Assembly (NCBI GenBank): GCA_902810075.1
Contig: LR778135.1
Coordinates: 2,542,001-2,606,000 of the forward strand
DNA length: 64,000 nucleotides
Source of the DNA: Ruminococcaceae bacterium BL-6
GTDB lineage: Bacteria; Bacillota; Clostridia; Oscillospirales; Acutalibacteraceae
Direction of reading: 5' to 3'
Position numbers and translations under genes: made by a program. The notes beneath the pieces are model-generated. The model was not told where the DNA came from. It searched no databases and was given only the letters and a program-made list of their open reading frames with translations. Below are positions 2,984-19,196 of this stretch, in pieces (position 1 is the stretch's first letter; each line of letters starts with the position of its first letter).

Positions 2984-4645
2984 CTACAGCGTGATCTCGC
3001 GTTTCCCGCTGATAAAAAAGAACAGGATCAGGGACAGAACGGACGTGACCGTCAGGATTGCGGAATAGACGCCGGCGAGGCCGTAATTCTGGGAGGTGAT
3101 CCCCGTATAGACCAGGATCGGGAGGGTCTTCGTGTCGGCCGTATAGATGATAATCGTGGTGGCAAGCTCACAGATCACGGTGATCCAGCTCAGCACCGCG
3201 CCGGGCAGGATGCCGGGCAGCATCATGGGCGCCGTGACGCGGAAAAAGGTGGTCGCATCCGACGCGCCCAGGCTGACCGCCGCTTCCTCCACACTGGGGC
3301 TGATCTGCGAAAGGATCGCGTTGCTGGAGCGGATGGTGTAAGGCATCCTCCGGACGATCATCGCGATGATGATAATGGCGCCCGTTCCCGCCATATAAAT
3401 CGGCGGCGTATTGTAGGTATATAAATAAGCGATGCCGAGAACGGTGCCGGGGATAATAAACGGAACCATCGTCACGGCGTCAAGCGCCTTGCTGACGGCC
3501 GACGGTTTTCTCGCGGCCATATATGCCACGACCACGCCGATCCCCACAATGAAGAGGATGGAGATCAAGCCGTAGAGATAGGTGTGGAGAACCGCAGGAT
3601 GATCTTTCGAAAGAAACACCTGCCGGTAGTTATCCAGCGAAAAATTGCCCGTATACATGATTCCCCCTTTTACTTCCAGAAAAGAGGTAAAAAACACGGT
3701 CGCCTGCGGAATGAGGAACAGCAGAACCCAGAAATAGGAAAAGGCGTGGGCGAGAATGGACTGGATTCCCTTTCCCTTTCTGGGCTCAAGCGGCTTGAGC
3801 ACGTTCATCGGATGGGAACAGGCCGCTGCCAGTTTCTGCTCCGCAAACATGATCACGATAATAAACACGATATTCATGACGCTGAGCGCCGACGCGAAAT
3901 GGTTATCCGTCGATACTTCCCCCATAAACTGATTATACAAAAGGCTCGGGAACGTATCGTACCCCTCCCCGATGATCATCGGGGTGGCGAAATCGGTAAA
4001 GGCATAGATGAAAACGATCAGCGCGCTGGCCAGAAGCGTCGGCATGATCAGGGGGACCACGATCCTCGTCATCCGCCTGAACGGGGAGCAGCCGAGGCTT
4101 TCCGCCGCTTCCATCAGGGAGCTGTCCATATTTTTCAGCGCGCCGCTCACATAGAGAAAAACCAGGGGTGTCGCCTGCATGGAAAAGACGAGAACGATCC
4201 CCGGAAAGCCGTAAATTCCGGGAAACTGCAGATGCAGGAAGGATCCGAGAAATCTCGTGACAAATCCGTTCCGGCCCAAAAGCTGAATCCACGAGTAGGC
4301 CCCGATCATCGGCGGCGAAACGTAAGAAATGATGATGAGGATCTGCAGGATCTTTTCCCCCCTGATCTGAACGCTTTTCATCACAAGCGCCAGCGGCAGG
4401 CCGATCATCATGCAGACAGCCGTGCAGACCAGAGTCACCTCTATGCTGTTGACGAGCCCCCTCACATACAGCTTTCTGCTGAAGAACCGGGCAAAGTATT
4501 CAAACGTGAACGCACCGTCGGTGTTTACAACGCTTTTATAAAGAAGCGAGCACATCGGATACACGATGAACACAAGCGAGAGGGCCAGCAGAATCAGCCC
4601 GCAGACTTTCCACCCGTTTATTTTACCGAATTTGGTGGATTCCAT
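2984..4645 (-). CDS. Double-domain ABC permease, Fe(III)/2-aminoethylphosphonate type
   Basis: This 553-residue membrane protein contains two copies of the binding-protein-dependent permease domain: about 12 hydrophobic segments and two EAA loops (MEAAESLGCSPFRRM near 180 and VEEAAVSLGASDATTF near 450). This is the fused arrangement of FbpB/AfuB permeases and of the PhnU-type permeases in some phosphonate loci. It follows the ATPase gene by one base and belongs to the same operon. Given the phn genes upstream, uptake of a phosphonate or phosphodiester is more likely than iron, but residues alone do not decide this. Confidence 0.85.
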   Translation of the reverse strand: MESTKFGKINGWKVCGLILLALSLVFIVYPMCSLLYKSVVNTDGAFTFEYFARFFSRKLYVRGLVNSIEVTLVCTAVCMMIGLPLALVMKSVQIRGEKILQILIIISYVSPPMIGAYSWIQLLGRNGFVTRFLGSFLHLQFPGIYGFPGIVLVFSMQATPLVFLYVSGALKNMDSSLMEAAESLGCSPFRRMTRIVVPLIMPTLLASALIVFIYAFTDFATPMIIGEGYDTFPSLLYNQFMGEVSTDNHFASALSVMNIVFIIVIMFAEQKLAAACSHPMNVLKPLEPRKGKGIQSILAHAFSYFWVLLFLIPQATVFFTSFLEVKGGIMYTGNFSLDNYRQVFLSKDHPAVLHTYLYGLISILFIVGIGVVVAYMAARKPSAVSKALDAVTMVPFIIPGTVLGIAYLYTYNTPPIYMAGTGAIIIIAMIVRRMPYTIRSSNAILSQISPSVEEAAVSLGASDATTFFRVTAPMMLPGILPGAVLSWITVICELATTIIIYTADTKTLPILVYTGITSQNYGLAGVYSAILTVTSVLSLILFFFISGKREITL

Positions 4646-4646
4646 A

Positions 4647-5744
<1,098 letters not shown>

Positions 5745-5820
5745 TTCAACACCTCACGCGCAAATATGATCGAAAAGACAGACATGCCGGAACAGGCCGG
5801 CCCGGGCGGCTTCTGAAAAA

Positions 5821-5856
5821 GAAAGCCTTACAAAGGATTCCTTTGTAAAGCTTTCC
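5821..5856 (-). terminator. Intra-operon hairpin between binding protein and ATPase genes
   Basis: On the minus strand an inverted repeat CTTTACAAAGGA / TCCTTTGTAAGG is followed by GCTTTCTTTTTC. It can act as a partial terminator or as a 3' stabiliser of the binding-protein mRNA, a common arrangement in importer operons. Confidence 0.6.
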
Positions 5857-5878
5857 AGAACCGCTTCGCCCCGGCCTG

Positions 5879-6952
5879 TCAGTGCTTTTCCCTGTGCTCG
5901 ACAAAGGTGTCCGTGACCAGCTTCTTGTTCTTCGTCACCCAGTCCTGATTATAGGTTTTGGAAAGGACGATCTGGTCGGTGGGAACCATATAATCGCCCA
6001 GGGAGACGCCCTTGCGGAGCGGCCTCGCGTTCAGGTGCGTCCCGACATAGCTCTGCGCTTCCTCGCTCAGCATATAATCCACAAACTTTTTGGCGCTCTC
6101 CGGATGCGGGCATTTGTTGATGATCTGAACGGATTCCGCTGGGAAAATGGAGCCTTCCTTCGGGAACACCAGCTCGACTTTTCCCCCGTTGCGGATATAG
6201 TTCACGACGGGGTCTTCCCAGGTGAGCCCCACGGCGTACTCCCCTTCGGCGACGCTCTGCGCCACATCGGTCGTGATGAACTTGCCCTCGGTGTTGTCCA
6301 GGAACTGATCCACAAATTTCCACGATTTCTCCGACATGGGGTCGCCGTTGTCGCTTGCGCCGTACAGCATGGCGAGCAGGCACTGATAGGAAGAGCTGGA
6401 TACGGAAGGATCCAGCCAGGAAATCTTCCCTTTCAGCTTCGGATTCAGAAGGTCCTGAAAGCTCTCGACTTTAATGTCCCCGATCAGGCTCTTATTCACG
6501 ATGATCGCCGTCGGGTCGGCGAAAGCCGGCGAAAAATAGCCGGTCGTGTTTTTAAAGCCGTCCAGCATGTTCTCATCTTCCGGAGAAACATATTTCATAA
6601 ACAGGCTGCTGTATTCGGAGAGCATGGTTTTGTCCGCCGCCCACAAAATATCGCCCTGCGGGTTGCTCGCTTCCGTCTGCACTCTTTTTAAGCATTCCCC
6701 GGTGTTTCCGGAAATGACGTCGACATGGATCCCGGTTTTCTTTTCAAAAGCGGGAATAATCGCGTCGTTCAACTGATCGCTTCTCGCCGTGTAGACAACC
6801 AGCGTATTGTCTCCCTTCCCGCTTTCCGTGCCCGCCGCGGCGGAAGACGTGGCCGGCTGGCTTTCCGCCTGTCCGCTGCCGCACCCGGCCAGGGAAGCGA
6901 GGCAGACTGCGGCGGCAAGGGCTAAAAATCTGAACCGAATTTTCCGTTTCAT
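5879..6952 (-). CDS. Extracellular substrate-binding lipoprotein, AfuA/PhnS-like
   Basis: A 357-residue protein. MKRKIRFRFLALAAAVCLAS leads into the lipobox LAGC, with the lipidated Cys at 24. A low-complexity linker follows, then a class II periplasmic-binding fold starting NTLVVYTARSDQLNDAIIPA, the usual opening of Fe(III)- and 2-aminoethylphosphonate-binding proteins. The ATG at 6952 has a strong site (GGAGGATCACT). It sits downstream of GDPD and PHP hydrolase genes and upstream of the matching ATPase and permease. A phosphonate or phosphate-ester ligand is inferred from context; iron cannot be excluded. Confidence 0.85.
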   Translation of the reverse strand: MKRKIRFRFLALAAAVCLASLAGCGSGQAESQPATSSAAAGTESGKGDNTLVVYTARSDQLNDAIIPAFEKKTGIHVDVISGNTGECLKRVQTEASNPQGDILWAADKTMLSEYSSLFMKYVSPEDENMLDGFKNTTGYFSPAFADPTAIIVNKSLIGDIKVESFQDLLNPKLKGKISWLDPSVSSSSYQCLLAMLYGASDNGDPMSEKSWKFVDQFLDNTEGKFITTDVAQSVAEGEYAVGLTWEDPVVNYIRNGGKVELVFPKEGSIFPAESVQIINKCPHPESAKKFVDYMLSEEAQSYVGTHLNARPLRKGVSLGDYMVPTDQIVLSKTYNQDWVTKNKKLVTDTFVEHREKH

Positions 6953-7076
6953 AGTGATCCTCCAATTTTGATCTTCATTTGTTTGCATCATCCTGCGTCT
7001 GATTGATTTATATTAAACTGCGCGCGGGCTGATCAGAAAGCCTCCGCACAGCGACTGCCAAACAGTAGAGCCGATT

Positions 7077-7742
7077 TCATCCATGCCGCGCCTCCTCCAT
7101 AATGCGCCCCGCGAGGTCCGGGCGGTTCGTCGTGATCATGTCCGCCCCGCAGGCGATCACCCGCCTGATCTCATCGGGGCTGTCCACCGTCCAAGCCGAC
7201 AGCTTCAAGCCCTGCGCATGCAGGCTTTCGGCCAGCTGCGCAGTCACCGCCGGATAAAAGAGCCCGATCCCGGCGGCTCCGCCTTCGTCCGCTTTCCGCG
7301 CAAATTCATCCAGCTCGGCGCGCCCCGCCTTTGAAAGCATCCGCGGGTCTCCGTTTGGATAATACGGGACCCCGGCGCATCCTTTCCGCATCGTTTCCAT
7401 ATCCCCGATCAGGTTTCCGGCATAGAGATTCCGTTCCAGCATGTTGTACCGCCGCTGCAGTCTTTCAAGCTCCGGCAGATTCGACCATTCCTTCAGATCG
7501 ATCACCATCCCGATCTCCCGCCGCGGCGCGAGAAACCGCAGCGCCTCCTCAAAAAAGAGGCAGGAGCATCCCGGCCCGGCCGGATTGTGGGTCAGAACGG
7601 GAGTGCCGTCCGGCAGAAAACGCACGTCTATTTCGATTTTGTCCGCGTTCCATTCCAGCGCCTTCTCCATCGATTCCAGGCTGTTCATCGGTGTCGCCAT
7701 GCAGCCCGCGTGCGCGACCAGAACCATTTTTCTATGTTGCAT
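7077..7742 (-). CDS. Glycerophosphodiester phosphodiesterase (GDPD) family protein
   Basis: A protein of about 221 residues with the TIM-barrel GDPD signature: VAHAGCMATPMNSLESM, then ADKIEIDVRFLPDGTPVLTHN, which supplies the metal-binding Glu/Asp and the catalytic His. The usual HRG-ENT motif is degenerate (HAG, NS). The family hydrolyses glycerophosphodiesters to glycerol-3-phosphate and an alcohol. The ATG at 7742 overlaps the stop of the upstream PHP gene by 11 bp, so it belongs to the phn-associated operon and may release a substrate for the system. It is short for the family (about 240-250). Confidence 0.82.
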   Translation of the reverse strand: MQHRKMVLVAHAGCMATPMNSLESMEKALEWNADKIEIDVRFLPDGTPVLTHNPAGPGCSCLFFEEALRFLAPRREIGMVIDLKEWSNLPELERLQRRYNMLERNLYAGNLIGDMETMRKGCAGVPYYPNGDPRMLSKAGRAELDEFARKADEGGAAGIGLFYPAVTAQLAESLHAQGLKLSAWTVDSPDEIRRVIACGADMITTNRPDLAGRIMEEARHG

Positions 7743-9192
7743 CGCCCGGTTCCTCCGCTTCCCGATAGATGGCATTGGTGAAGGCGAGCAGCCCGCCAGA
7801 TTTGTCATAAAGCGCAAGCCTGACCCAGCGGACGCCGGAAATATCGAGCGGAACGGACGCCGTCCCGTCGGGGCATTCCCCCCGCCAAAGCGCGCCGCGG
7901 CTGCTTTCCAGCACCAGGAAATCCCCGGCCTGCGGCGTGCGGTGCGCGCCGAATATAGAGCCCTCCCGCACTCCGACCCTCGCCTGAACCTTCGTCGGGC
8001 CGCCCGGCATCCGGCCACCGATTCCATAATCCGCGCCCGCCGCCGGGTCGTGCAGCTCCAGAAGCGGAACCGGCCCCATCGACACGGCCGCGCGTCCGGC
8101 GCGAAGGCCCGCAAGGTAGGCCCGCGGGCTGCGCTCCCCTTCGGGCGCGCAGAGATAGGTTGCCGAAAGCCCGCTTTCCCCCACAAGGGGAACATGCCAG
8201 TCGCCCCCCGCGACCGCCGTTATCCTGCGCCCTTCGTCGAGCAGCCGCGTCCACAGCCGATAGGCGGCCTCATTGACTTTTTGATTGCCCTTATAAGTCT
8301 GGGACCACACTTCCAGATAATCGATCAGCGTCCAGTCCCTGAGCTCAAATTCAAACCCGCATCCGGCGCAGCCGATCGAGCCCGTGCTGAACGGGTGCGC
8401 GATCCCGACGATCATCTCCGGATGCCGCTCCCGGATCCGCCGCAGGGTTTCCGTGAAATTCTTCAGGGTGAGCCCGCGCCAGTCGAGGTAATCCGAGCAG
8501 TTCAGGAAAAGAAGGTGCCCATGGAAGGTGGTCCATTCCATCCCGCCGATCCGGACAAGCTCCGGCGCGGCGCAGGACCATTCGCGCTGCCCGGAAACGG
8601 TGTTGTGGTCGGTCAGCGCCAGCCCGCCGTAGCCGAGCGCCAGCGCCTGCCCCTCGAGCTCCCGCACCGTCTGCGACCCGTCGCTGTGCACGGTGTGGCT
8701 GTGCAGCTCGAACGGCCGCCATTCCAGCCCTTCGATCGGCTCGCCGTACACCTCCAGCGTATAGGAGCAGCCTTTCCCCCAGACCGAGAAGGCGCTGATG
8801 GTGACGCGCAGGGGGCCTTTCGGCACCATGCCCGGCCGAAAGCCCTCGGTGGTCAGGCCGCCGACGCCGATGCGATGGACCTGCTCGGCCCGGTGCATAT
8901 GGGTCATCCCCCGGATGCCGCCGGAGTCATCCACCGAAATCATGAGCACGTTGCGGTATTCGGTCTCTCCGGGCGCTTCCGCGCGCCAATCGGGATCTTC
9001 CCCGAGGCTCCATTTCGGGAAGACCGCCGGCCGCTGAGCCGGGGAAATCTCCTTTTCCTCGGCCCGCCATGGCTCATAGCGGAACCGGATCTCCACCATG
9101 CGGAAATCCCGCCGCAGTTCCACCTCGTGCCGGATCTGCGTCCGGTTGTTTTCAAATGTCAGTCTGCCTTCCACCCGTTTCAGAAGTTCCAT
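7732..9192 (-). CDS. CehA/McbA family PHP-type metallohydrolase
   Basis: A 486-residue protein. Residues 1-160 are a beta-rich region of unclear family. Residues about 165-370 carry PHP metal-site motifs: ELHSHTVHSDGSQ, ALTDHNT, GIAHPF and GGDWH. A C-terminal beta domain follows. CehA/McbA proteins hydrolyse esters, including carbamates, but most members are uncharacterised. It overlaps the GDPD gene downstream and sits among phn genes, so a phosphodiester or phosphonate-ester substrate is plausible. It has no signal peptide and is probably cytoplasmic. Confidence 0.8.
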   Translation of the reverse strand: MELLKRVEGRLTFENNRTQIRHEVELRRDFRMVEIRFRYEPWRAEEKEISPAQRPAVFPKWSLGEDPDWRAEAPGETEYRNVLMISVDDSGGIRGMTHMHRAEQVHRIGVGGLTTEGFRPGMVPKGPLRVTISAFSVWGKGCSYTLEVYGEPIEGLEWRPFELHSHTVHSDGSQTVRELEGQALALGYGGLALTDHNTVSGQREWSCAAPELVRIGGMEWTTFHGHLLFLNCSDYLDWRGLTLKNFTETLRRIRERHPEMIVGIAHPFSTGSIGCAGCGFEFELRDWTLIDYLEVWSQTYKGNQKVNEAAYRLWTRLLDEGRRITAVAGGDWHVPLVGESGLSATYLCAPEGERSPRAYLAGLRAGRAAVSMGPVPLLELHDPAAGADYGIGGRMPGGPTKVQARVGVREGSIFGAHRTPQAGDFLVLESSRGALWRGECPDGTASVPLDISGVRWVRLALYDKSGGLLAFTNAIYREAEEPGDAT

Positions 9193-9381: not shown

Positions 9382-9987
9382 CTAGCCGCCGTATTTCCGG
9401 CAGAAAGCGTCGATATCCCTGAAATCGCCGAGGCGCTCCTTTAATTCCTCGTGCGTCCAGTCCCACCAGCGGCTGTTCCGTATTTTCCGAATGATATCAG
9501 GCGGAAAACGGTATTTCAGATGGCGGGCGGGAATGCCGGCGACGATCTCATAGGGCTCGACATCCTTCGTCACAACGGCCATGGAACCGATTACGGCGCC
9601 ATCCCCGACCGTCACGCCGCCCATGATCACCGCGTTGTAGCCGATCCACACATCGTTCCCGATGGCGACCCGCTTCTGCCGCCGCCAGTTAAAAAACTCC
9701 TCGTCGTCCTCGCCGAGGCCATACTGCGCGCAGCGGTACGTGAAATGGCTCTGCGCCACCCTGATGTAAGTGGGGTGCTGCCCCGGGTTGATTCTGGCGC
9801 TGGTGGCGATGGAAACGAATTTCCCGATATCGGTGTAGATGATCTCATTGTGGCGTCCGCAATAGGAATAGTCCCCGATTTTGCTTTCGGTGATGACGCA
9901 TCCTCTGCCGATCTGCACATAGCGCCCGATTTCCGTTTGGACGACCTTCGCGTCGGGGCGGATGTCCGGCTCTATTCCAAGCTGCAT
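9382..9987 (-). CDS. Phosphonate-metabolism hexapeptide-repeat acyltransferase
   Basis: A 201-residue left-handed beta-helix transferase. Hexapeptide turns run from about 15 to 60 (IGRYVQIGRGCVI, IGDYSYCGRHNEI, IGKFVSIATSARI) and again from 108 (IGNDVWIGYNAVIMGGV). A catalytic-type His lies in NPGQHPTYIR, and the end is charged and helical. It closely fits the phn-associated hexapeptide family that I know as TIGR03308 and resembles xenobiotic acetyltransferases. It probably acetylates an aminophosphonate or a pathway intermediate, in the role played by PhnO elsewhere. No ribosome site is close to AGGAGG, but AAAGGAGAAAAAC precedes the ATG. Confidence 0.85.
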   Translation of the reverse strand: MQLGIEPDIRPDAKVVQTEIGRYVQIGRGCVITESKIGDYSYCGRHNEIIYTDIGKFVSIATSARINPGQHPTYIRVAQSHFTYRCAQYGLGEDDEEFFNWRRQKRVAIGNDVWIGYNAVIMGGVTVGDGAVIGSMAVVTKDVEPYEIVAGIPARHLKYRFPPDIIRKIRNSRWWDWTHEELKERLGDFRDIDAFCRKYGG

Positions 9988-10059: not shown

Positions 10060-11004
10060 TCAAAAAATATTTGACATTTTATATATAATATTATATAATG
10101 AAGTTTTATAGTTACAATTAAGCGCAGGTAAAACCTTGATTAAATCAAACGTTTTCCAGCCTGTCCAGCCAATCGAGAGGGGAAAGCCGGCAGCCAGGCA
10201 TTCCGCTTTCCCGAACGCGCCGTGGTAATCGCTGCCCCCCGTCAGAAAAAGATGATACCGGTCCGCCAGCCTTCGGATACGCTCCAGATCGTCCGGCGTA
10301 TGATCCGGATGATTCAGCTCCAGGCCGTCCAGGCCATCCGGCACAAGCTCGGGAATCAGATCGAAGGAATCGAGCTGCCCCGGATGCGCGAGCACCGCGA
10401 GCCCGCCGTCCGCCTTGACCGCCCGGACCGCGTCGTGCGCATCGCAATACTCGATATCGCCGGCGGCGATGCCGACGCCTTTGAAAAGCCGCCGGTACAG
10501 CGACTGGTATTCCGCGGACCCGAACGGCCGGTCGGTGATGGCCGCCATGATGAACTGCTTGTACAGGACGCCGCCGTCCTTCGTCAGGCGCTCGAGAACG
10601 CCGTCGGAAACCCGGATGCCCGCGGCCTTGATCCGCTCGAGCTGCCAGTGGGAACGGGCGTCCCGCTTTTCGAGCGTTTTCACGCACAAACGATCGATGT
10701 GATCCGCGGGCAGCCTGTAGCCGTAGCCCAGCACATGCGCCTTCCGGTTTCTTCTGTAATCGTAGGCGGATATTTCGATTCCCGGCACCAGAAAGATCCC
10801 GTTCCTTTCGGCCGCCTCTTTTGCCGCCAAGTAGGTTTTGGTCGTATCGTGATCCACAAAGGACAGATGCGTGATCCCGAGCCTTGACGCCATGCGGCAC
10901 AGCTCCGAAACAGTGTGGGAGCCATCCGAATAAGTGCTGTGAACGTGCGCGTCCATCTTCCCGCCGGGCGCGGCCCTTGTGCCGCACGGGTTGAAATCAT
11001 TCAT
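10060..11004 (-). CDS. PHP domain phosphodiesterase, PhnPP-like
   Basis: A 314-residue PHP protein: DAHVHSTYSDGSHTVSEL, FVDHDTTKTY, PGIEISAYD, LAHPGQ and GGSDYHG supply the His and Asp metal ligands. A protein of this type in Eggerthella lenta (PhnPP) hydrolyses 5-phosphoribosyl 1,2-cyclic phosphate in two steps to ribose-1,5-bisphosphate or its products. The position directly after phnL, and the absence of phnP and phnN, fits this role. The ATG at 11004 has AAGGAGG upstream. About the last 20 residues (after TFDLIKVLP) are encoded by an unusually AT-rich tract and look like an added tail. Confidence 0.85.
   Translation of the reverse strand: MNDFNPCGTRAAPGGKMDAHVHSTYSDGSHTVSELCRMASRLGITHLSFVDHDTTKTYLAAKEAAERNGIFLVPGIEISAYDYRRNRKAHVLGYGYRLPADHIDRLCVKTLEKRDARSHWQLERIKAAGIRVSDGVLERLTKDGGVLYKQFIMAAITDRPFGSAEYQSLYRRLFKGVGIAAGDIEYCDAHDAVRAVKADGGLAVLAHPGQLDSFDLIPELVPDGLDGLELNHPDHTPDDLERIRRLADRYHLFLTGGSDYHGAFGKAECLAAGFPLSIGWTGWKTFDLIKVLPALNCNYKTSLYNIIYKMSNIF
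10071..10099 (+). promoter_or_regulatory. Perfect-consensus promoter antisense to the PhnPP-like gene
   Basis: TTGACA (10071-10076), 17-bp spacer, TATAAT (10094-10099), both hexamers exact, reading rightwards into the 3' end of the minus-strand gene. The opposite strand carries TTGTAA-16-TATAAT, so the tract may fire in both directions and drive the acyltransferase gene as well. Confidence 0.6.
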
Positions 11005-11030
11005 GGGATTTCCCTCCTTCGGTTCCGCGC

Positions 11031-11744
11031 TCACTTCATGGCCGCGTGCGGCTGCTCCATCTGATACACCTGGTCGCACAGCCCTTCCATAAAAGCCAGG
11101 TCGTGGAAAATGCCGATCATGGTCGTTCCGTTCTGCTTGAGCTTTTCGATGGACTCGCGCACCTTGTATTTGGAGATATCGTCAAGGCTCGCCGTCGGCT
11201 CGTCCAGGAGCAGAAGGCGCGGCCGTTTGACGACGGCCCTCGCGATGTTCAGCCGAAGCTTTTCGCCGCCGGAAAAGGTAAGGGGGTAATTGTCCCAAAG
11301 CTCTTCGGGCAGGTCGAAATGGCGCAGGGTGTCCTTTGCGATGCGGCTCGCCTCCTCCCCTTTGACGTCCATTTCCCACAGCGCCTTTTCCACCAGCTCC
11401 AGGGAAGTGCGGCGCGGCATGATGTTCAGAAACTGAGAAACGTATCCGATCTCATTTTTGCGCAGGTAGATCACTTTCTGCACGTCGGCCCGCGCCAGAT
11501 CGATCCTTCCGAACGCGACGGAACGGTACCAGATGTGGCCCGACTGGGGCAGATAAGTGCGGTAGATGCTTTTCAGGATGGTGGATTTTCCGCTGCCGCT
11601 TCTCCCCACAATCCCGAGGAACTCGCCTGCCTTCACTTTGAAGCTGACGCCGGACAGGGCCCCGATCGTCCGTTTCAGGTGATGGATGTAAAAGCTCTTT
11701 TCCAGATTTTCTATTTGAATCAAAGGGCACACCTTTCTTTCCAT
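11031..11744 (-). CDS. phnL: PhnL, C-P lyase system ATP-binding subunit
   Basis: A 237-residue ABC-type protein with Walker A GRSGSGKST, LTFSGGEKLRLNIARA, Walker B LLLLDEPTASLD and the PhnL-specific IGIFHDLAFM ending. Family length is about 226-235. The ATG at 11744 has only a weak GGAAA. A TTG at 11723, with AAAGGTG five bases upstream, starts the protein at the residue where E. coli PhnL starts and may be the true start. PhnL takes part with PhnG-H-I in attaching ribose-5-triphosphate to the phosphonate. The start region lies against repeat copy A. Confidence 0.92.
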   Translation of the reverse strand: MERKVCPLIQIENLEKSFYIHHLKRTIGALSGVSFKVKAGEFLGIVGRSGSGKSTILKSIYRTYLPQSGHIWYRSVAFGRIDLARADVQKVIYLRKNEIGYVSQFLNIMPRRTSLELVEKALWEMDVKGEEASRIAKDTLRHFDLPEELWDNYPLTFSGGEKLRLNIARAVVKRPRLLLLDEPTASLDDISKYKVRESIEKLKQNGTTMIGIFHDLAFMEGLCDQVYQMEQPHAAMK

Positions 11745-11750
11745 AGCGTT

Positions 11751-11843
11751 TCCAGCTAAGACGCAGAATTGATGTTTGTTCCCTCCCCCTCCGGCGGGGG
11801 AGGAGCAAACCCGGGTTCGCAATCATAAGCGGAGTTGCTGCAG
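11751..11843 (-). repeat. Dispersed palindromic repeat, copy A (phnM 3' end)
   Basis: About 93 bp starting TTTCCAGCTAAG at the plus-strand left end, with a central palindrome (TTTGTTCCCTCCCCC / GGGGGAGGAGCAAA) and a right end CCGGGTTCGCAATCATAAGC. It matches copy B (35521-35616) over its whole length and copy C (47341-47387) over one half in the opposite orientation. It overlaps the last codons of phnM and the phnM-phnL junction. Confidence 0.75.
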
Positions 11844-13015
11844 CGGTACATGCTTTGAAATATGACGTTTCCGTCGATGATGCTGCTTGCGACGTAAGGG
11901 ACGGAACCGATTTTTCTGACGATCAGGATATCCGCCTTTTTCCCCGGGGCGATCGAGCCGATCTCGCGGTCCGCCCCGACCGCTTTCGCCGGGTTCAGGG
12001 TCGCCATCGCGACCATGTCCGCAAGCGGGATGCCGTACCGGCCGGCCATCTGAAACACACTCAGCAGCATCGCCGCCGGATAATAGTCGCTGCACAGGAC
12101 GTCAATGGCGTTTTCAAGGATCGCCTGTGTCACGCTGAGGTTCCCCGAATGAGACTTTCCGAGCAGGATGTTGGGGCTGCCCCCCACGGTGATAAGGCCC
12201 ATCTCCTTCGCTTTTTTCGCCACCTGCAGCGTGATGGGGAACTCGCTGATGCCGATCCCCAGGTCGTGGATCAGCCGGATCTTCTCGGGGGAATCGTCGT
12301 CGTGGGAAGCCACCGCGACCCCCATGCTCTGCGCGAGCTTTGTCAGCTCGCGGATGGTGTCCCAGGTCAAAAGCTCCTTGTGCATATTGTTCCGGATCAG
12401 CCGGTCCGCCTGTGCCGCCGAAATGTTTTTGTAGCCCTGGATGGTTTTGCGGTAGGTTTCCAGATTGCGGTACTGCCCCTGCCCCGGGGTGTGATCCATG
12501 AAGGAAAGCAGGTCGACATCCCCGTTTTGCAGGTAGCGCCGCAGCTCCTCCACCTTATCGATGTTGTCGATTTCAAAACGCAGGTGGAGCCTGTTCCGGA
12601 TCAGGTGATCCTTCTTCCGCGCCCGGATGATCTCCCCGATCATCCGGGCGACGTTATCCTGGTTTCGGACCGGCTTTGCGGAAAACATGTCCGCCTTGAG
12701 CAGGGACAGGCTGTGATACATTGTCGTGATCCCGTGGACCATCAGCATCCGCTCCGTCTCGCAGACGCTGATCCCGAAATCCATCAGAGCCGTCGGCCGC
12801 GGGGACGCGACGCTCTCCAGGTAGTCCGAATGGATGTCCACAAAGCCCGGCATGACATAGCCGCCCGATGCGTCAAGCCTTGTGTCGCCCCCGTGGACGC
12901 GGCAGGGCCGCCCGTTGGGGACGAGCTCCGCGATCCTGTCTTTATCAATGAGGACAGAGCAGTTCTCCAGCACTTCGCTTTCCGTCACAACCCTGCCGTT
13001 TTCAATCACCGTCAT
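11756..13015 (-). CDS. phnM: PhnM, ribose 1-methylphosphonate 5-triphosphate diphosphatase
   Basis: A 419-residue amidohydrolase-fold enzyme. N-terminal IENGRVVTESEVL, metal motif PGFVDIHSDYLES, central SFMDHTPGQGQY, ASHDDDS and the C-terminal barrel SPNILLGKSHSGNLS are PhnM hallmarks. It removes pyrophosphate from the alkylphosphonate ribose triphosphate, giving the PhnJ substrate. About the last 22 residues (from AYDCEPGF to the stop) are encoded by repeat copy A and have no family counterpart that I recall; the natural end is probably near VIFQSMYR. Confidence 0.93.
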   Translation of the reverse strand: MTVIENGRVVTESEVLENCSVLIDKDRIAELVPNGRPCRVHGGDTRLDASGGYVMPGFVDIHSDYLESVASPRPTALMDFGISVCETERMLMVHGITTMYHSLSLLKADMFSAKPVRNQDNVARMIGEIIRARKKDHLIRNRLHLRFEIDNIDKVEELRRYLQNGDVDLLSFMDHTPGQGQYRNLETYRKTIQGYKNISAAQADRLIRNNMHKELLTWDTIRELTKLAQSMGVAVASHDDDSPEKIRLIHDLGIGISEFPITLQVAKKAKEMGLITVGGSPNILLGKSHSGNLSVTQAILENAIDVLCSDYYPAAMLLSVFQMAGRYGIPLADMVAMATLNPAKAVGADREIGSIAPGKKADILIVRKIGSVPYVASSIIDGNVIFQSMYRCSNSAYDCEPGFAPPPPEGEGTNINSAS

Positions 13016-13082: not shown

Positions 13083-13925
13083 CTACAGCAGGGAATAGAC
13101 CAGCTGCTGCGTATAGGGATGCTGCGGGTCCTCCAGGATCTGATCGGTCAGGCCTTCTTCGATGATCCTTCCGTTCAGCATAACGACCGTGCGGTCGGCC
13201 AACATCCGGATGACGGACAGGTCGTGGGAAACAACCAGAACGCTGTTCTGACGCTCCCGCTGAATTTCCTGGATCAGCTCCAGCACATCTGCCTGAACCG
13301 ACAGGTCGAGGCCCGTCGTGACCTCGTCCAGCAGCAGAACGGGCGGCTCGTTGGCCAGCGCCTTGGCGATCTGCACCCTCTGCTGCATTCCGCCGGAAAA
13401 ATTGCAGGGGCTGTCCTTTCTTCTGGCAGGCGGGATATGCACCTGATCCAGCAAAACGTCGCTCCGGGCGACCATCGAATGCACGTTCCGGTTCCCCGCC
13501 GCGATCATCTTTTCAGCGATGTTGCTGCGCGCGGAAAAATCCATTTTCAGCCCCATCGTCGGATTCTGGTACACCATGCCCAGAAGCATGTTCCGCACCC
13601 ACTTCTGCTGCCGGCGGGAGGAAGAGAAAAGGTTTTCCTTCCCATTTTGATAAGCTTCGAGATGATATTCGCCGCTTGTCGCCGCGTTGTCGAAATAAAG
13701 CGCCTGCATCAGAGTGGATTTTCCGCTGCCGCTTTCGCCGACGATCCCGACGATCTCCCCGCGGTACAGGGAAAGGGAGATGTCCTGGCACGCATAGACC
13801 GTATGGCATTTCGGGCAGTAGCCGTTTTTCCGGTTCTCCGGTTTTTCCAGGCAGTACGGGCATCCCGGGCCGAAAAATTTGTTGAAATGCTTCAGGGTCA
13901 AGACCGGCTGCTCCTGTTCCTTCAT
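13083..13925 (-). CDS. phnK: PhnK, C-P lyase ATPase subunit with Cys-rich insertion
   Basis: A 280-residue ABC-type protein with Walker A GESGSGKST, signature NFSGGMQQRVQIAKA, Walker B LLLDEVTTGLD and the H-loop VVSHDLSV. PhnK docks on PhnJ in the E. coli complex. Compared with E. coli PhnK it has an insertion at about 20-48 holding CPYC, CPKC and a further Cys (VYAC), a zinc-ribbon-like spacing. The start overlaps the phnJ stop by 4 bp. The Walker B glutamate is kept only in the shifted form DEVTTG, as I recall for other Firmicutes PhnK. Confidence 0.92.
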   Translation of the reverse strand: MKEQEQPVLTLKHFNKFFGPGCPYCLEKPENRKNGYCPKCHTVYACQDISLSLYRGEIVGIVGESGSGKSTLMQALYFDNAATSGEYHLEAYQNGKENLFSSSRRQQKWVRNMLLGMVYQNPTMGLKMDFSARSNIAEKMIAAGNRNVHSMVARSDVLLDQVHIPPARRKDSPCNFSGGMQQRVQIAKALANEPPVLLLDEVTTGLDLSVQADVLELIQEIQRERQNSVLVVSHDLSVIRMLADRTVVMLNGRIIEEGLTDQILEDPQHPYTQQLVYSLL

Positions 13926-14776
13926 TCGGTTTCGCCCTCCTTTTCCCGGTTCAGATATTCCAGCAGATAACTCGAATCGTTGGTCTGGTAATAGACCTCG
14001 CCGGTTTTTTCATCCGTCAGCTCATCCAGATAGACATTTGTCAGCCCGGTCAGGCGGCATTTTTTGCCTGCGAAACGTTCTCTCTGAAACGGATAGTCGT
14101 CGAACGCGAGGGAAACCACTTTGGTATACGGCGGGACCGCATAGATCTTCTTTTCCCTGCCCGCGCCGAACAGCATCAGCGCGGGGCTGCCGTTCATTTT
14201 CGGGTTGTCGAAGCGCGGGATCGGGCTGGGGGCCATGACATATCTGCCGTTCACGCAGACCGGGTGGTCCGCGTCGGTCGCGACCTGGCCGTACCGCATG
14301 ATGTCTTCGAACATTTTCAGCCAGACCCCGCTGTAGTCAGCCTCGCCGTGCAGCTTTTTCGTTTTGTACTCGCTCGGCTCCACATTGCGCAGCGGTTCCG
14401 GCAGCGGCACCTGCAAAACCAGGATCTGCCCTTCCTTCAAGGGCCGCTCCGGGATGCGGTGCCTGGTCTGGATCAGCGTGGCCTGCGCCGTATGGATCGT
14501 CGAGGAGACGCCCGTCGTCTCCTGGATCAGGCTTCTCAGGCTGACCGCGTTGACGGATTCGTCGGAGCCCTGATCGATCACCTTGATCGTGTCGTTCTTT
14601 CCGACAAGGGACAAGGTAATCTGCAGCCCCCCGGTCCCCCATCCCCTTGCGATGGGCAGCTCGCGCGATGCGAACGGGACCTGATACCCCGGAATCGCCA
14701 CCGCCTTCAAGAGGGCCCTTCGGATTTCCCTTTTGGAGTTCTCATCCAAAAAGGCAAAATGTTTTTCCCTAATCAT
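13922..14776 (-). CDS. phnJ: PhnJ, C-P lyase catalytic subunit lacking three of four key cysteines
   Basis: A 284-residue protein aligning to E. coli PhnJ from LDENSKREIRRA onwards, including LKAVAIPGYQVPF with the active-site glycine (Gly30, Gly32 in E. coli), ATLIQTRHRIPE and FGAGREKKIYAVPP. The C-terminal region aligns without gaps (GKKCRLTGLTNVYLDEL against EPCAICGSTHSYLDEV). Only the first Cys (240) is kept; positions equivalent to C244, C266 and C272 are Thr243, Thr265 and Leu271. No frameshift or stop is present, and the gene overlaps both neighbours. Ordinary radical-SAM C-P bond cleavage should therefore be impossible or depend on another cluster. Confidence 0.93.
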   Translation of the reverse strand: MIREKHFAFLDENSKREIRRALLKAVAIPGYQVPFASRELPIARGWGTGGLQITLSLVGKNDTIKVIDQGSDESVNAVSLRSLIQETTGVSSTIHTAQATLIQTRHRIPERPLKEGQILVLQVPLPEPLRNVEPSEYKTKKLHGEADYSGVWLKMFEDIMRYGQVATDADHPVCVNGRYVMAPSPIPRFDNPKMNGSPALMLFGAGREKKIYAVPPYTKVVSLAFDDYPFQRERFAGKKCRLTGLTNVYLDELTDEKTGEVYYQTNDSSYLLEYLNREKEGETE

Positions 14777-15890
14777 GGCTGTTTTCCTTTCGAATATTCC
14801 GAATCCGGTCCAGCTTCGACTGGAAGGTCACATAATGCGGCAGCTTCAAATGGGAGATGAACCCGGCGGACTCCACCGCGTCGATATGCAGCAGCACAAA
14901 CTCTTCGTCGGATGTGGGGTCCCTGGGATCCGGGTGCTCCATGGAATACTCCAGGACGCTCATCGCGATGGCTTTCGCTTCGTTCTGTCCGAAGCAGAGG
15001 CCGTACCCCAGCCCGATGCCGAGAACGCTTTTTTCGTTTTCCTCCTGCTGCTCCTCCATCATAAAGATTTCCACTTCCGTCGCCTCGACTTCGCCGATGT
15101 AGTATTCCTCCCGCGTGCCGGAGAGGTCCGAAGCAATACGCAGCGGAAGTGACCCGACGCGCAGCTCCCCGATATTAGGATGATGGCTGATCCCGAAACC
15201 ACGGATCTTGGCATACCCCAGCGCGGTGACGGCGCCCGTCATCCCCCTGGTCAGAATCTGAAGACGGATGCTCCGCGTCGAGGGGAAAACGAGGGGCTCG
15301 GTCGTGATATCGTGCGGCGCCTCGTCGGAGAGAACCGGCTCCGGGATCAGGTTCTGGGACCGCAGGTAATCGACGACGCGCGGCAGACGGCCGGCCTTCC
15401 CGGTCTGTTTCTCCTTTTTCTCCCCGATCTCCCTCAAAATCACCTCTTCATACTGTTTCTGAAACGCCCGGGCGTCCCCGCAGGTCTCCTCATACAGGTC
15501 GTAATCCAGCAGGCGGTGCTGGAAATCCGGAGAAGCCCCCAGAATCTGTCCGCCCGGGATATCCTTGAAGCTGGAGGAAATCCTTCTTTCAACCTGCATC
15601 CCGGACGTGTCGGTGACGGTTGTGACATACAGCCTCGGCAGAGTGGAGCGGTGCGCCCGCAGGATAAACACCGCCTCGGCCGGGTCCCCCTGCGCCTGCT
15701 TGATCGCGAGCGCGGCCAGCTCCGGGCTGTACAGGCTGCTTTCCGACATCACGCAGTCCACCAGCTTTTTCAAGTTCCCGCAGATATCGTCCACGCAGAC
15801 CGAGCGTCCGCCGCGGCATCTTTGATACTTTTCCAGAAGATTCGACTCCCGGATCGCTTCGGCTCCCCCTTTGACCGCTACATATCCCAT
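14769..15890 (-). CDS. phnI: PhnI, C-P lyase core subunit
   Basis: A 373-residue protein with the conserved start MGYVAVKGGAEAI, the central LLEKY...RAHRSTLPRL region, and the C-terminal ISHLKLPHYVTFQSKL. The two His of the HLKLPH motif correspond to the Zn-binding His328 and His333 of E. coli PhnI at the PhnI-PhnJ active site, so that site is intact. PhnI with G, H and L transfers the phosphonate to the ribose of ATP. The end overlaps phnJ by 8 bp and the start abuts phnH. Confidence 0.95.
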   Translation of the reverse strand: MGYVAVKGGAEAIRESNLLEKYQRCRGGRSVCVDDICGNLKKLVDCVMSESSLYSPELAALAIKQAQGDPAEAVFILRAHRSTLPRLYVTTVTDTSGMQVERRISSSFKDIPGGQILGASPDFQHRLLDYDLYEETCGDARAFQKQYEEVILREIGEKKEKQTGKAGRLPRVVDYLRSQNLIPEPVLSDEAPHDITTEPLVFPSTRSIRLQILTRGMTGAVTALGYAKIRGFGISHHPNIGELRVGSLPLRIASDLSGTREEYYIGEVEATEVEIFMMEEQQEENEKSVLGIGLGYGLCFGQNEAKAIAMSVLEYSMEHPDPRDPTSDEEFVLLHIDAVESAGFISHLKLPHYVTFQSKLDRIRNIRKENSHD

Positions 15891-16492
15891 CAGAAAGCCT
15901 CCTTTTCGGCCTTCGCCTCAACTTTTGTGGTTCTGGGAAGGGAAAGGATGTTTCCCTCCCGGTCGACAAAAATGCAGTCGATCCCAAGCGGAAACTCCCT
16001 GTTTTTCTTTCTGCGGATCTCCTCCCAGCCCCAGGAGCAGCAGACGGCGATATCGGCCGCCCCGGCGATTCCGGGGCCCGTGCAGCGGTACGCGGTTCCC
16101 TGCCGGACGGAACGGCATTCGATCAGCACGGTTGCCGAGCGCTGTGGATCGTAAATCGTCCCTGTCTTAGCCTGTTCCACCCACTGTGCCGCATCCTCCG
16201 GGGCATCCGCCGGAATCACGAGGAAATCCGCCGCCGCGGCCGCCGCCCTGTGGGCCGAGGTCTGGATCTGGATCTCCCGGACCGTCTTTTCATCCCCGGT
16301 GCCGCAGAAAAACCCCATGCCGCCGTCGAGCAACGTTTTCAGGATTTCCATCATGGCCGGGGAAATCCGGCTGTTGGGGTAGGACGAGACCATTTCTTCG
16401 GGGATTCGGACGTTTCTGCCCACATAGGCCATGGACTGCAAAAGCAGCCTGAAAATCCGCTGCGTTCTGTACACATCATTTCTGTTATCCAC
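15890..16492 (-). CDS. phnH: PhnH, C-P lyase core subunit
   Basis: A 200-residue protein with PhnH-type features: the N-terminal YRTQRIFRLLLQSMAYVGR, the acidic linker EDAAQWVEQAKTGTIYDPQRSATVLIECR, the CTGPGI loop and the closing FPLGIDCIFVDREGNILSLPRTTKV. PhnH forms a dimer within the G2H2I2J2 core. It overlaps the start of phnI by one base and follows phnG by about 36 bp. Confidence 0.93.
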   Translation of the reverse strand: MDNRNDVYRTQRIFRLLLQSMAYVGRNVRIPEEMVSSYPNSRISPAMMEILKTLLDGGMGFFCGTGDEKTVREIQIQTSAHRAAAAAADFLVIPADAPEDAAQWVEQAKTGTIYDPQRSATVLIECRSVRQGTAYRCTGPGIAGAADIAVCCSWGWEEIRRKKNREFPLGIDCIFVDREGNILSLPRTTKVEAKAEKEAF

Positions 16493-16528: not shown

Positions 16529-16951
16529 TCAATCCTTCATCGTGCGGAAATCCACCTTTGTCCTTTCGCGGATCTTATTCCGGATCTTCTTCTGGATGCT
16601 TTCCTTTTCCCGGATTTTTTCCCAGTATGTTTCCCAATGCCCGGTTTCGGGCAAGCCGGCGCGGCAGGCGGCGTCCACGACGGCCAGGGCTTCGCATAGC
16701 CCGGGGCGGCTGCCCGTGACGACGCCCAGGCCGATCGCCCCGCCGACCCTGGCCTTTGCTTCGGTGATCAGCACTTCCCCCAGGTAAAACAGGGTCTGCT
16801 TTGCCGTTTCCCTGACTTTGATCATCGTCAGGCCTTCCTGCGGCCGGGAAATCCATTCGACGGGATATTTTCCCTTTATTTCATCTGCCATCTGCAGCAA
16901 TTCTTCGTTTCCATAACAAATCAGCAGCCGCGTGCGTTCTTCACAATCCAT
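16529..16951 (-). CDS. phnG: PhnG, C-P lyase core subunit
   Basis: A protein of about 140 residues with the PhnG core: RPQEGLTMIKVRETAKQTLFYLGEVL, ARVGGAIGLGVVTGSRPGLCEALAVVDA, and an ending RTKVDFRTMKD that mirrors the RVDFFTM end of E. coli PhnG. It is the first gene of the phn operon. I chose the ATG at 16951 because the ATG at 16978 lies only about 5 nt from the predicted transcription start and has no ribosome site; AGGGGG lies about 12 nt before the chosen start. Confidence 0.88.
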   Translation of the reverse strand: MDCEERTRLLICYGNEELLQMADEIKGKYPVEWISRPQEGLTMIKVRETAKQTLFYLGEVLITEAKARVGGAIGLGVVTGSRPGLCEALAVVDAACRAGLPETGHWETYWEKIREKESIQKKIRNKIRERTKVDFRTMKD

Positions 16952-16988
16952 GTCTTTTTCTGTCCCCCTTTGTTTCATTTGCGAGGCC

Positions 16989-17317: not shown

Positions 17318-18037
17318 ATGCCGAAAGATTATCAGAAGGAATTAGCAATTCGGGAAGATTTGGCATACCAGATTCAGCATCACCGGTTTGCCGAGGGGGA
17401 AAAGCTTCCCAGCGAATATGAGCTTGCAGAAAAATACGATGTAACGCGGATCACGGTCCGCAACGTTTATCTCACCCTGCAGGAGATGGGCTTCATTTAT
17501 TCCAAGCAGGGAGTCGGCCACTTCGTCCAGAAAAAAATCGGGAACATCGAGCTGCTGCTGAAAAGCGGCTCCAGCTTCAGCGAAAAAATGCGCCGGCAAA
17601 ACATCCCCTGCGAAACCGTGAATCTTTTCTGCAGGCGGATCTCTTACTCGAAGGCCCTGTTCGAACGGCTGGAAGCATCGGAAAACGAAGAGGTTTTCTG
17701 TATCGCGCGCCTGCGGATCCTTTACCATTTTCCGGCCGCCATCCATTTTTCTTACCTGCTGAAATCCAGATTTCCGACGATCGACCGCGACGGCCCCTCG
17801 ATCACTTCCATCTTCGATTATTACCGCAGGCTGGGCCACCGGAACCTTCTGGCTTCCCCGGCGACCCTGAGCGCCGGATTTCCTTCCCGGCAGGAAAAGA
17901 AGTGGCTGCAGTGCGGCGCGCTGGTGCCGCTTCTGGTGCTGGAACACGACTGCGTCGATGCGGACAGCGGCGAAACGCTGGAAAAAACAAGGAGCATCTA
18001 CCGGAGCGATATCTTCCAGCACAGGGTAAAGTTTTAA
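17318..18037 (+). CDS. GntR/HutC family regulator, probable phn repressor
   Basis: A 239-residue protein. Residues 1-75 are a GntR winged helix (LAYQIQHHRFAEGEKLPSEYELAEKYDVTRITVRNVYLTL, then GFIYSKQGVGHFV). Residues 85-235 form the UTRA ligand domain of the HutC subfamily, the same class as PhnF. The ATG at 17318 follows GGAAGGGAG. It is divergent from phnG with a shared 366-bp control region, so it probably represses the phn operon and responds to a phosphonate or phosphate-linked ligand. The C-terminal half diverges from PhnF proteins that I know. Confidence 0.85.
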   Translation: MPKDYQKELAIREDLAYQIQHHRFAEGEKLPSEYELAEKYDVTRITVRNVYLTLQEMGFIYSKQGVGHFVQKKIGNIELLLKSGSSFSEKMRRQNIPCETVNLFCRRISYSKALFERLEASENEEVFCIARLRILYHFPAAIHFSYLLKSRFPTIDRDGPSITSIFDYYRRLGHRNLLASPATLSAGFPSRQEKKWLQCGALVPLLVLEHDCVDADSGETLEKTRSIYRSDIFQHRVKF

Positions 18038-18227: not shown

Positions 18228-19196
18228 TCAGGCCCCGCCCCCCAGGCTTTCATAGATCTTGCTCAGATTGCTTTCCATCCTCTCCAAATAGGGCTTCCCA
18301 TCCTCTGTGCTTTCAAGAGTATAAATCGTTTCGGTCTTTGCCCCGACTTCCTTCGCCAATGTCTTTGAAATCTCCGGGCTTGCCATCTGTTCTACAAAAA
18401 CGGTTGTGACTTTATTCGTCTTGCAGTATTTTACAAGCTCGGCCAACTGCTGAGCACTGGGCTCCCCTTCGGCGTAGACATCCTCCACACTGTTCTGTTC
18501 CAGCCCAAAATCGCGGCACAGATAGCCGAATGCGGCATGTCCCGTTACAAAGCTCTTTTTTGACACGGACTTGAATTTTTTATCATATTCCGCATAAAGG
18601 CTTTCCAGCTTGGAAACGAAATCGCCGCAGTTCTTTTCGTAATACTCCCGATTGGACGGGTCCGCTTTCACCAGGCCGTCTTTGATGTTTTTGGCTTCGA
18701 TTTCAGCGCCTTTTAAGCTCATCCATAAATGAGGGTTCTCCTGTCCGTGTTCTTCGATTTCTCCCGGATCGGTGTTCTTGATTGCCTGCGCCCCTTTCGA
18801 GGCTTCTACGGCGGCCAGATTCGGATTATTTGCCGATTGAACCGCTTCCTTTGCCCAGGACTCCATCCCAAGGCCGTTATACACAAAGATTTTTGCCGTG
18901 CTCAGGCTGATAAGGTCCTGCGCTTTCGGCTCAAAATCGGCGGCGCAGCCCTCCACACCGGGGTTGATGACAGTGATTTCGACTTTGTCTTTTCCGACGG
19001 CCTCCGTCAATTCTTTCATGGCGTCGAACGATACGGATGCCTTCAATTTCTCATCTGAAGTCCCGCTTTCCTCCGAAACCTCACTGACAGGCTGGGAAGC
19101 AGCCCCCGAATTCATCATTTTTTCTCCGCCGCATGCCGAAAAGCCTACGCTTATCACCGCTGCACAGAGCAGAAACGCCGCATACCGTTTTAACAT
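18228..19196 (-). CDS. Metal-binding lipoprotein, ZnuA/TroA-like (cluster 9)
   Basis: A 322-residue lipoprotein: hydrophobic signal then FSACGG (Cys22), a Ser/Glu linker, then the TroA fold. Of the four usual metal ligands, His is present in ENPHLWMS and in VTGHAAFGY. The first His (normally in a DPHxFEP motif) is replaced (CAADFEP), and the last Asp appears as Glu (YTLES). No permease or ATPase gene is nearby, so it is an orphan binding protein. A palindrome in its leader (19224-19240) suggests metal-responsive control. The substrate could be Zn or Mn. Confidence 0.85.
   Translation of the reverse strand: MLKRYAAFLLCAAVISVGFSACGGEKMMNSGAASQPVSEVSEESGTSDEKLKASVSFDAMKELTEAVGKDKVEITVINPGVEGCAADFEPKAQDLISLSTAKIFVYNGLGMESWAKEAVQSANNPNLAAVEASKGAQAIKNTDPGEIEEHGQENPHLWMSLKGAEIEAKNIKDGLVKADPSNREYYEKNCGDFVSKLESLYAEYDKKFKSVSKKSFVTGHAAFGYLCRDFGLEQNSVEDVYAEGEPSAQQLAELVKYCKTNKVTTVFVEQMASPEISKTLAKEVGAKTETIYTLESTEDGKPYLERMESNLSKIYESLGGGA

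Follow-up and report, generated by a model that had tools for sequence, protein, structure and literature searches.

PhnJ proteins lacking three of the four cluster and radical cysteines in carbon-phosphorus lyase operons

The phn operon and its PhnJ

We examined a 64,000-nucleotide stretch of the genome of Ruminococcaceae bacterium BL-6 (contig LR778135.1, positions 2,542,001 to 2,606,000; this whole stretch is hereafter called the window) and found that it carries, in one operon, the carbon-phosphorus (C-P) lyase core set PhnG, H, I and J together with PhnK, L and M, arranged as phnG-H-I-J-K-M-L and followed by genes for a PHP hydrolase and a hexapeptide acetyltransferase (Table 1). PhnK and PhnL were named from the ABC profile, the best model and their place in the operon, as they did not pass the cut-offs of their own models. 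The gene of interest here is phnJ, whose product retains one of the four cysteines that are assigned to cluster binding and radical formation in E. coli. Its reading frame is intact, encodes 284 amino acids, matches PF06007 at 453.5 bits (cut-off 25) over profile positions 3-271 of 275, and shares 8 bases with phnI and 4 with phnK, which bears out an earlier reading of the DNA letters alone (the sequence-only reading) that had described an intact gene overlapping both neighbours.

In the excerpts of PMC7916636, Cys241, Cys244 and Cys266 of E. coli PhnJ bind the cluster, Cys272 makes the radical attack, and cleavage depends on S-adenosylmethionine (SAM); the excerpts of PMC9947105 describe the same four residues as a putative cluster site located 30 A from Gly32. 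The cysteine roles given in the sequence-only reading agree with both. Upon alignment to the E. coli PhnJ chain 7z15_D, the four positions were occupied in the window by Cys240, Thr243, Thr265 and Leu271, such that the Cys241 column alone was retained. These are the residues that had been assigned before, and the total of two cysteines in the protein had likewise been counted correctly, but the alignment is not ungapped as had been stated: one single-residue gap precedes the first cysteine (the E. coli chain is one residue shorter near window residue 236), and the offset is accordingly 2 at Gly30/Gly32 and 1 at the cysteines. Radical SAM enzymes are recognized by three cysteines ligating a SAM-binding [4Fe-4S] cluster, and two of these three ligands are absent from the window PhnJ. 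The protein retains Gly30 (equivalent to Gly32, the proposed glycyl radical) and His106 (equivalent to His108, a ligand contact). A check for a second, normal PhnJ, as the sequence-only reading had proposed, found none in the genome (one contig, 3.4 Mb), which gave a single PhnJ match. The same reading had credited the operon with a normal promoter; this claim rests solely on a 9/12 consensus match at 17017-16989 on the minus strand, and we do not take it as evidence (the stretch holds two promoter-like sites, versus 0.3 in shuffles).

Table 1. Features of the phn locus in the window, with the basis of each assignment.
Feature	Position	Strand	Basis or remark
ABC importer	2984..6991	-	binding protein 5879-6991, ATPase 4647-5744, permease 2984-4645
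GDPD-family phosphodiesterase, start inferred	7077..7745	-	PF03009
CehA/McbA-family PHP metallohydrolase, probably of the same gene set	7732..9192	-	NF038032 above cut-off
Hexapeptide-repeat acetyltransferase of phn operons	9382..9987	-	TIGR03308 above cut-off
PHP hydrolase nearest phosphoribosyl 1,2-cyclic phosphate 1,2-diphosphodiesterase, start uncertain	10060..11079	-	NF041661, 293 bits, below cut-off 500
phnL, ABC ATPase, start codon uncertain	11031..11822	-	ABC_tran; name from operon place
phnM, ribosyl-triphosphate diphosphatase	11756..13015	-	NF011990 and TIGR02318 above cut-off
phnK with N-terminal CxxC...CxxC insert	13083..13925	-	best NCBI model TIGR02323 PhnK, 198 bits, below cut-off 303
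phnJ, Cys-less	13922..14776	-	PF06007 profile and alignment to E. coli chain
phnI	14769..15890	-	metal-site His237, His347, His352 (E. coli His219, His328, His333) intact
phnH	15890..16492	-
phnG	16529..16978	-	PF06754, 95.5 bits
GntR/UTRA regulator, PhnF-like, divergent, start inferred	17318..18037	+	PF00392, PF07702

Occurrence, selection and origins of the Cys-less form

For brevity, we refer to PhnJ proteins with this loss as Cys-less and to those with all four cysteines (CCCC) as canonical. We aligned 125 PhnJ rows, of which 123 were readable at all four columns after two incomplete ones (L034 and L062) had been excluded; the sampling was non-random, as many loci were the best matches to Cys-less queries. 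The outcome was two-valued: 107 of the 123 rows read CCCC (104 distinct) and 16 read C-[T/S]-[T/I/V/L]-[L/M/G/A/V] (16 distinct), with no intermediate cysteine pattern among them. Cys241 was found in every row (16/16 Cys-less, 107/107 canonical), and in loci L064, L072 and L091 it is the single cysteine of the entire reading frame. Because Cys241 alone remains of the four in all 16 Cys-less rows, the cluster cannot bind there as it does in E. coli. The equivalents of Gly32 and His108 were kept in all 16. A filter of columns that are more than 85% alike in canonical PhnJ, run on 98 canonical, 3 group A and 12 group B rows (groups as described below), returned canonical-rare letters in a group solely at columns 5 and 6, at the N-terminal tip, and at the three cysteines; group B was additionally variable at conserved columns such as 62, 204 and 230.

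Group A consists of the window and two close relatives. A scan with one genome per species gave seven confirmed relatives of the window PhnJ (L004-L010), of which L004 (a Clostridiales Family XIII metagenome-assembled genome, MAG; CTIL) and L005 (a MAG labelled Anaerolineaceae; CTTL) are both 86% identical to it, and the other five (L006-L010) have all four cysteines. The sequence-only reading had asked whether the Cys-less form is a conserved clade, and these two genes, each the single PhnJ match of its genome, bear this out. Group A is rare among the relatives of the window's genome: PhnJ occurs in 2 of 148 such genomes, its own included (the other, of the same family, is CCCC), in 8 of 391 in its class (the seven others CCCC), and in 21 of 398 in its phylum, where the other 20 genomes are CCCC where readable and one has an extra truncated copy. 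Similarly, 15 of 148 genomes in the order of L004's genome have PhnJ, Cys-less in L004's own alone (one gene is split between contigs). The L005 gene is the sole PhnJ match among 147 genomes of its genome's family, and was therefore probably acquired by transfer.

Group B, the larger of the two, comprises forms from Thermus, from Alphaproteobacteria and from the phylum of L005's genome. On Thermus thermophilus plasmids, strain SNM1-7 reads CTIM and HB8 pVV8 reads CTVM (NC_017767.1, WP_014677597.1), the latter having been reached by a further search with the SNM1-7 protein, itself from plasmid records. Searches with the SNM1-7 and Mesorhizobium proteins brought up C-S-x-x forms in Mesorhizobium AR07, Nitratireductor OM-1, Haematobacter, Microvirga VF16, Sinorhizobium B11 and Rhizobium AB2/73, while the HB8 protein as a query led to three genomes in the phylum of L005's genome (CTLA, CTLA and CTIV) and the Mesorhizobium protein to one genome in the class of Neorhizobium L007 (CSVG). 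The class-level search with the Mesorhizobium protein gave 55 matches, of which 32 were read (30 as loci and 2 otherwise). In the sample of the L005 phylum, PhnJ was present in 16 of 221 genomes and Cys-less in 4 of these 16, namely the three of group B and L005's own, which is the sample centre. Among 215 plasmid records, 8 from Thermus and 8 from Alphaproteobacteria were assigned to group B by identity, and 8 of these 16 were read; the 18 of 215 records that were read cover plasmids only, without the chromosomes of those strains.

Canonical PhnJ is also carried by the Haematobacter plasmid, the Microvirga plasmid and genome G1305; the coexistence of both forms in these alphaproteobacterial genomes or plasmids, three in all, suggests that they divide the labour between them. 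The genomes of the window, L004 and L005, and of three more from group B, yielded no further PhnJ; most of these genomes may be incomplete. The Microvirga sp. VF16 plasmid (NZ_CP069355.1; L069, 1.4 Mb) holds nine PhnJ genes, two Cys-less and seven with four cysteines. We also observed that three alphaproteobacterial Cys-less proteins (L066, L067 and L094) have a cysteine immediately after Gly32 (PGCQMPY). Two very divergent PhnGHIJ operons, on a Proteus mirabilis plasmid (NZ_CP098448.1; L036, 6001-6756) and on a Martelella plasmid (L037), encode PhnJ proteins in which the four cysteines are present and Gln replaces His108; the Proteus operon adjoins an ABC importer whose permease is annotated as iron type.

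The Cys-less genes appear to be maintained. Between the window and L004, the ratio of nonsynonymous to synonymous change (dN/dS) was 0.060, and the proportion of nonsynonymous differences (pN) was the same in the body (0.070) and in residues 237-273 (0.070), in agreement with the earlier claim that the gene is not a decayed pseudogene. For the other two group A pairs synonymous sites were saturated over the body, and all eight group B pairs gave a body dN/dS of 0.05-0.16. Judged from these substitution patterns, the Cys-less PhnJ genes of both groups are under purifying selection and are not decaying. Since genes that are 86% identical share the loss under strong purifying selection, the window gene is neither the product of a sequencing error nor a decayed remnant.

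Tree placements suggest that the cysteines were lost more than once. In a tree built on PhnJ residues 4-236, which exclude the cysteine region (the gappy L034 and L035 and 11 near-copies were omitted), groups A and B took separate, starred places, and group A stood beside canonical sequences mostly of the window's class and phylum; residues around the lost cysteines in group A also resemble those of its canonical neighbours. In approximately unbiased (AU) tests, a single Cys-less clade was not rejected on the PhnJ body alone (p 0.094; further omitting L062, four long rows and most alphaproteobacterial canonical rows) and was rejected on the 833 columns of PhnI+J+K (p 0.0065; omitting near-copies, L034, L035, L062, five long rows and four fifths of the alphaproteobacterial canonical rows). 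Both tests used quick trees and a group that was defined after the first tree had been seen, and the bootstrap of the PhnJ tree had not settled. L062, labelled Cys-less in the PhnJ-tree table, is a truncated contig, and two changes remain without it. On these trees, two separate losses, one in group A and one in group B, are likely. That the same three residues were probably lost twice while the fourth stayed in place points to a coordinated switch in function.

Remaining components of the Cys-less operons

The excerpts of PMC9947105 place a Zn site at the PhnI/PhnJ interface, where the metal is held by PhnI His328 and His333, both essential for growth on phosphonate, PhnI His219 joins the Zn in the open state, and PhnJ His108 is in contact with a ligand that was modelled as 5-phosphoribosyl 1,2-cyclic phosphate, the product. 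PhnI was retained in all 15 Cys-less loci that were read, and its three metal-site histidines were kept in 3/3 of group A and 12/12 of group B. Judging by these residues and by the neighbouring genes, selection has preserved the PhnI/PhnJ metal site and the apparatus for ribosyl transfer, and several operons also retain genes that are compatible with the usual product. In the 12 group B loci, PhnI is changed at positions 271, 272, 297 and 310 (window numbering), which are near-invariant in canonical PhnI and unchanged in group A.

Three simple PhnK motif patterns, sought in the 15 Cys-less loci, gave single misses in L004, L040 and L066. The N-terminal CxxC...CxxC insert of PhnK, which may provide this ABC ATPase with an additional metal site, was found by motif in 3/3 of group A, 49/98 canonical operons and 0/12 of group B; column counts put the same insert in about 62 canonical rows. 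As a substitute cluster site it offers no general answer, given its absence from group B. A replacement enzyme common to the Cys-less operons was likewise sought by clustering the neighbours of 20 loci (10 Cys-less and 10 canonical); none of the resulting families both spanned the ten Cys-less loci and was missing from every canonical one. Four clusters drew members from Cys-less loci alone, two consisting of importer permeases (one in the window, L004 and L064, the other in L004 and L064), one of frames opposite phnH (L004 and L005), and one of xylose-isomerase-like TIM-barrel proteins (PF01261; L064 18598-19362 in HB8 and L127 1483-2418 in G1305).

All three group A operons encode a PHP protein with NF041661 as its best NCBI model (290-298 bits), and the canonical L006 operon encodes one at 228 bits. 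Mesorhizobium AR07 has PhnN together with a TIGR03223 protein, both above cut-offs. Phosphonate importers, PhnCDE or PhnCD, stand beside two Thermus operons, Sinorhizobium B11 and L005, and the importer of the window and L004 has a binding protein of SBP_bac_8 type. The gene context thus favours the usual product further along the pathway over a complex limited to ribose transfer. Within the window, the phn genes are followed, without a change of strand, by genes at 2984-9192 that encode the CehA/McbA-type hydrolase, the GDPD phosphodiesterase and the SBP_bac_8-type importer, hinting at esterified phosphonates or glycerophosphodiester-like substrates for this system. A gene for a ZnuA-like zinc-binding lipoprotein (18228-19196) adjoins the regulator of the window phn genes.

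Possible functions and comparison with known systems

With the cluster site removed and the metal site and ribosyl-transfer apparatus kept, the simplest account is a radical-free complex that still yields a ribose cyclic phosphate. We tentatively favour, at somewhat short of even confidence, a working C-P-lyase-type complex in which PhnJ would lack the [4Fe-4S]/SAM radical site and the ribose cyclic phosphate would form at the PhnI/PhnJ His-Zn site. In such a complex, PhnI with PhnG, H and L would attach a phosphorus compound to the ATP ribose, and PhnM would then trim the coupled product to the 5-phosphate, after which the ribose 2-OH would attack the phosphorus at the His-Zn site, without a radical, and expel the organic group, giving the same 1,2-cyclic phosphate as in E. 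coli. Recovery of the phosphorus would fall, as in the usual pathway, to downstream enzymes, either the PHP dihydrolase or PhnN acting with the TIGR03223 protein. The substrate would need a tolerable leaving group, and might thus be an activated phosphonate (acyl-, carboxy- or carbonyl-stabilised) or a phosphate or phosphonate ester, and not methylphosphonate. A bolder form of this proposal, which we consider possible but doubtful, is a naturally cluster-free C-P lyase, where PhnGHIJKLM would break C-P bonds at the His-Zn site without cluster or SAM radical and would have evolved from the radical form at least twice.

Several observations weigh against a working radical-free complex. The E. 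coli mechanism in the excerpts of PMC7916636 uses the cysteines, and for none of the Cys-less forms did we find a measured activity, metal content or product. Gly32, kept in 16/16 rows, is not obviously required by a non-radical enzyme; it is either structural, or the radical arrives from elsewhere. The His-Zn site may serve the ribosyl transfer by PhnI, so that its conservation fits ribose transfer alone equally well. The PHP proteins fall below the cut-off of the NF041661 dihydrolase model and, because one also occurs in the canonical L006 operon, mark a shared product at best. No PhnN or PhnP is listed in the HB8 stretch that was read, for which the gene table is incomplete. Finally, the C-terminal part of group B PhnJ is less tightly constrained than the body: its pN was the higher in seven of eight pairs, ratios reached 0.24, and one pair was saturated.

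Other explanations can be set against the same evidence. The radical may have been kept and be supplied at Gly32 by another protein, an activase or other cluster subunit, with Cys241 taking the thiyl role. This is consistent with the invariance of Gly32 and Cys241 in the Cys-less rows (the latter also in canonical ones), with the cysteine adjoining Gly32 in three alphaproteobacterial forms, with the PhnK insert of group A, and with the canonical PhnJ copies present alongside in three alphaproteobacterial genomes or plasmids; however, the ten Cys-less loci compared share no extra enzyme, the PhnK insert is missing from 12/12 of group B, and the window, L004, L005 and three more group B genomes, most possibly incomplete, gave no other PhnJ, and we consider this explanation unlikely. 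The complex could instead work in ribose transfer only, for detoxification, capping or storage, with the phosphorus bond never being broken, as the sequence-only reading had offered as its third option. The lost residues are indeed those assigned to bond breaking, and PhnG, H, I, L and M are all present in the window, with PhnI kept wherever a Cys-less locus was read; but candidates for processing the cyclic phosphate in the group A and Mesorhizobium operons, and whole operons with importers that suggest phosphorus supply, make this quite unlikely.

The C- forms of ribosomal proteins replaced a metal site by other packing. By analogy, the four-cysteine site might be mainly a structural metal site throughout the family, repacked in the Cys-less forms, with one cluster-independent mechanism for all PhnJ. 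The replacements (Thr/Ser, then Thr/Ile/Val/Leu, then Leu/Met/Gly/Ala/Val) would suit such repacking, but a zinc-ribbon swap leaves unexplained why one cysteine was kept in every case, and in the excerpts of PMC7916636 cleavage depends on both cluster and SAM, the attack being made by a Cys272 radical, so that we find this very improbable. A sequencing error, gene decay or a silent remnant has next to no probability and is treated as ruled out, given the same loss in three assemblies, purifying selection, and a single-copy gene in an intact, overlapping operon.

As selection keeps the Cys-less genes intact, either their complexes perform other chemistry or the accepted C-P lyase mechanism is incomplete. 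Where and how C-P lyase breaks its bond is unsettled: in the excerpts of PMC9947105 the cluster site lies far from Gly32 and product-like density appears elsewhere. The Cys-less operons offer a natural separation of functions, in which the cluster site was removed, probably twice, and the rest was kept, and they open the question of bond breakage to experiment, one such operon being on a plasmid of a thermophile in standard laboratory use. If a cluster-free lyase were true, the ribosyl-phosphonate trick, rather than the radical, would be the heart of the machine. Excerpts of the literature treat the four cysteines as conserved marks or features of PhnJ (PMC11978286, PMC12413358) and link phnJ abundance to iron through the cluster (PMC6852614); we found no mention of a PhnJ without these cysteines in the open-licence literature searched. 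The genes themselves are already in public records, which name them C-P lyase. As PF06007 passes them with high scores and records give them that name, phnJ in a metagenome should not be taken as a sign of methane potential.

Compared with E. coli C-P lyase, the window PhnJ belongs to the same family (query residues 6-272, 342 bits), with Gly32, His108, PhnI His219/328/333 and the GHIJKLM genes kept; it differs in the absence of Cys244, Cys266 and Cys272 and in the PHP hydrolase of its operon, and no phnN or phnP stands among the annotated window genes, no separate search having been made for either. The C-terminal cluster cysteines of canonical PhnJ have prompted a comparison with ThiC (excerpts of PMC7916636); the Cys-less form differs from ThiC and other noncanonical radical SAM enzymes in lacking the very cluster ligands that define the likeness. 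The HB8 pVV8 system differs from that of the window in belonging to group B, with a separate origin on the PhnI+J+K tree, in having no PhnK cysteine insert, and in the four changed PhnI positions that group A keeps; it nevertheless shares the pattern of loss (C-T-V-M) within a complete phnCDE-GHIJKLM set.
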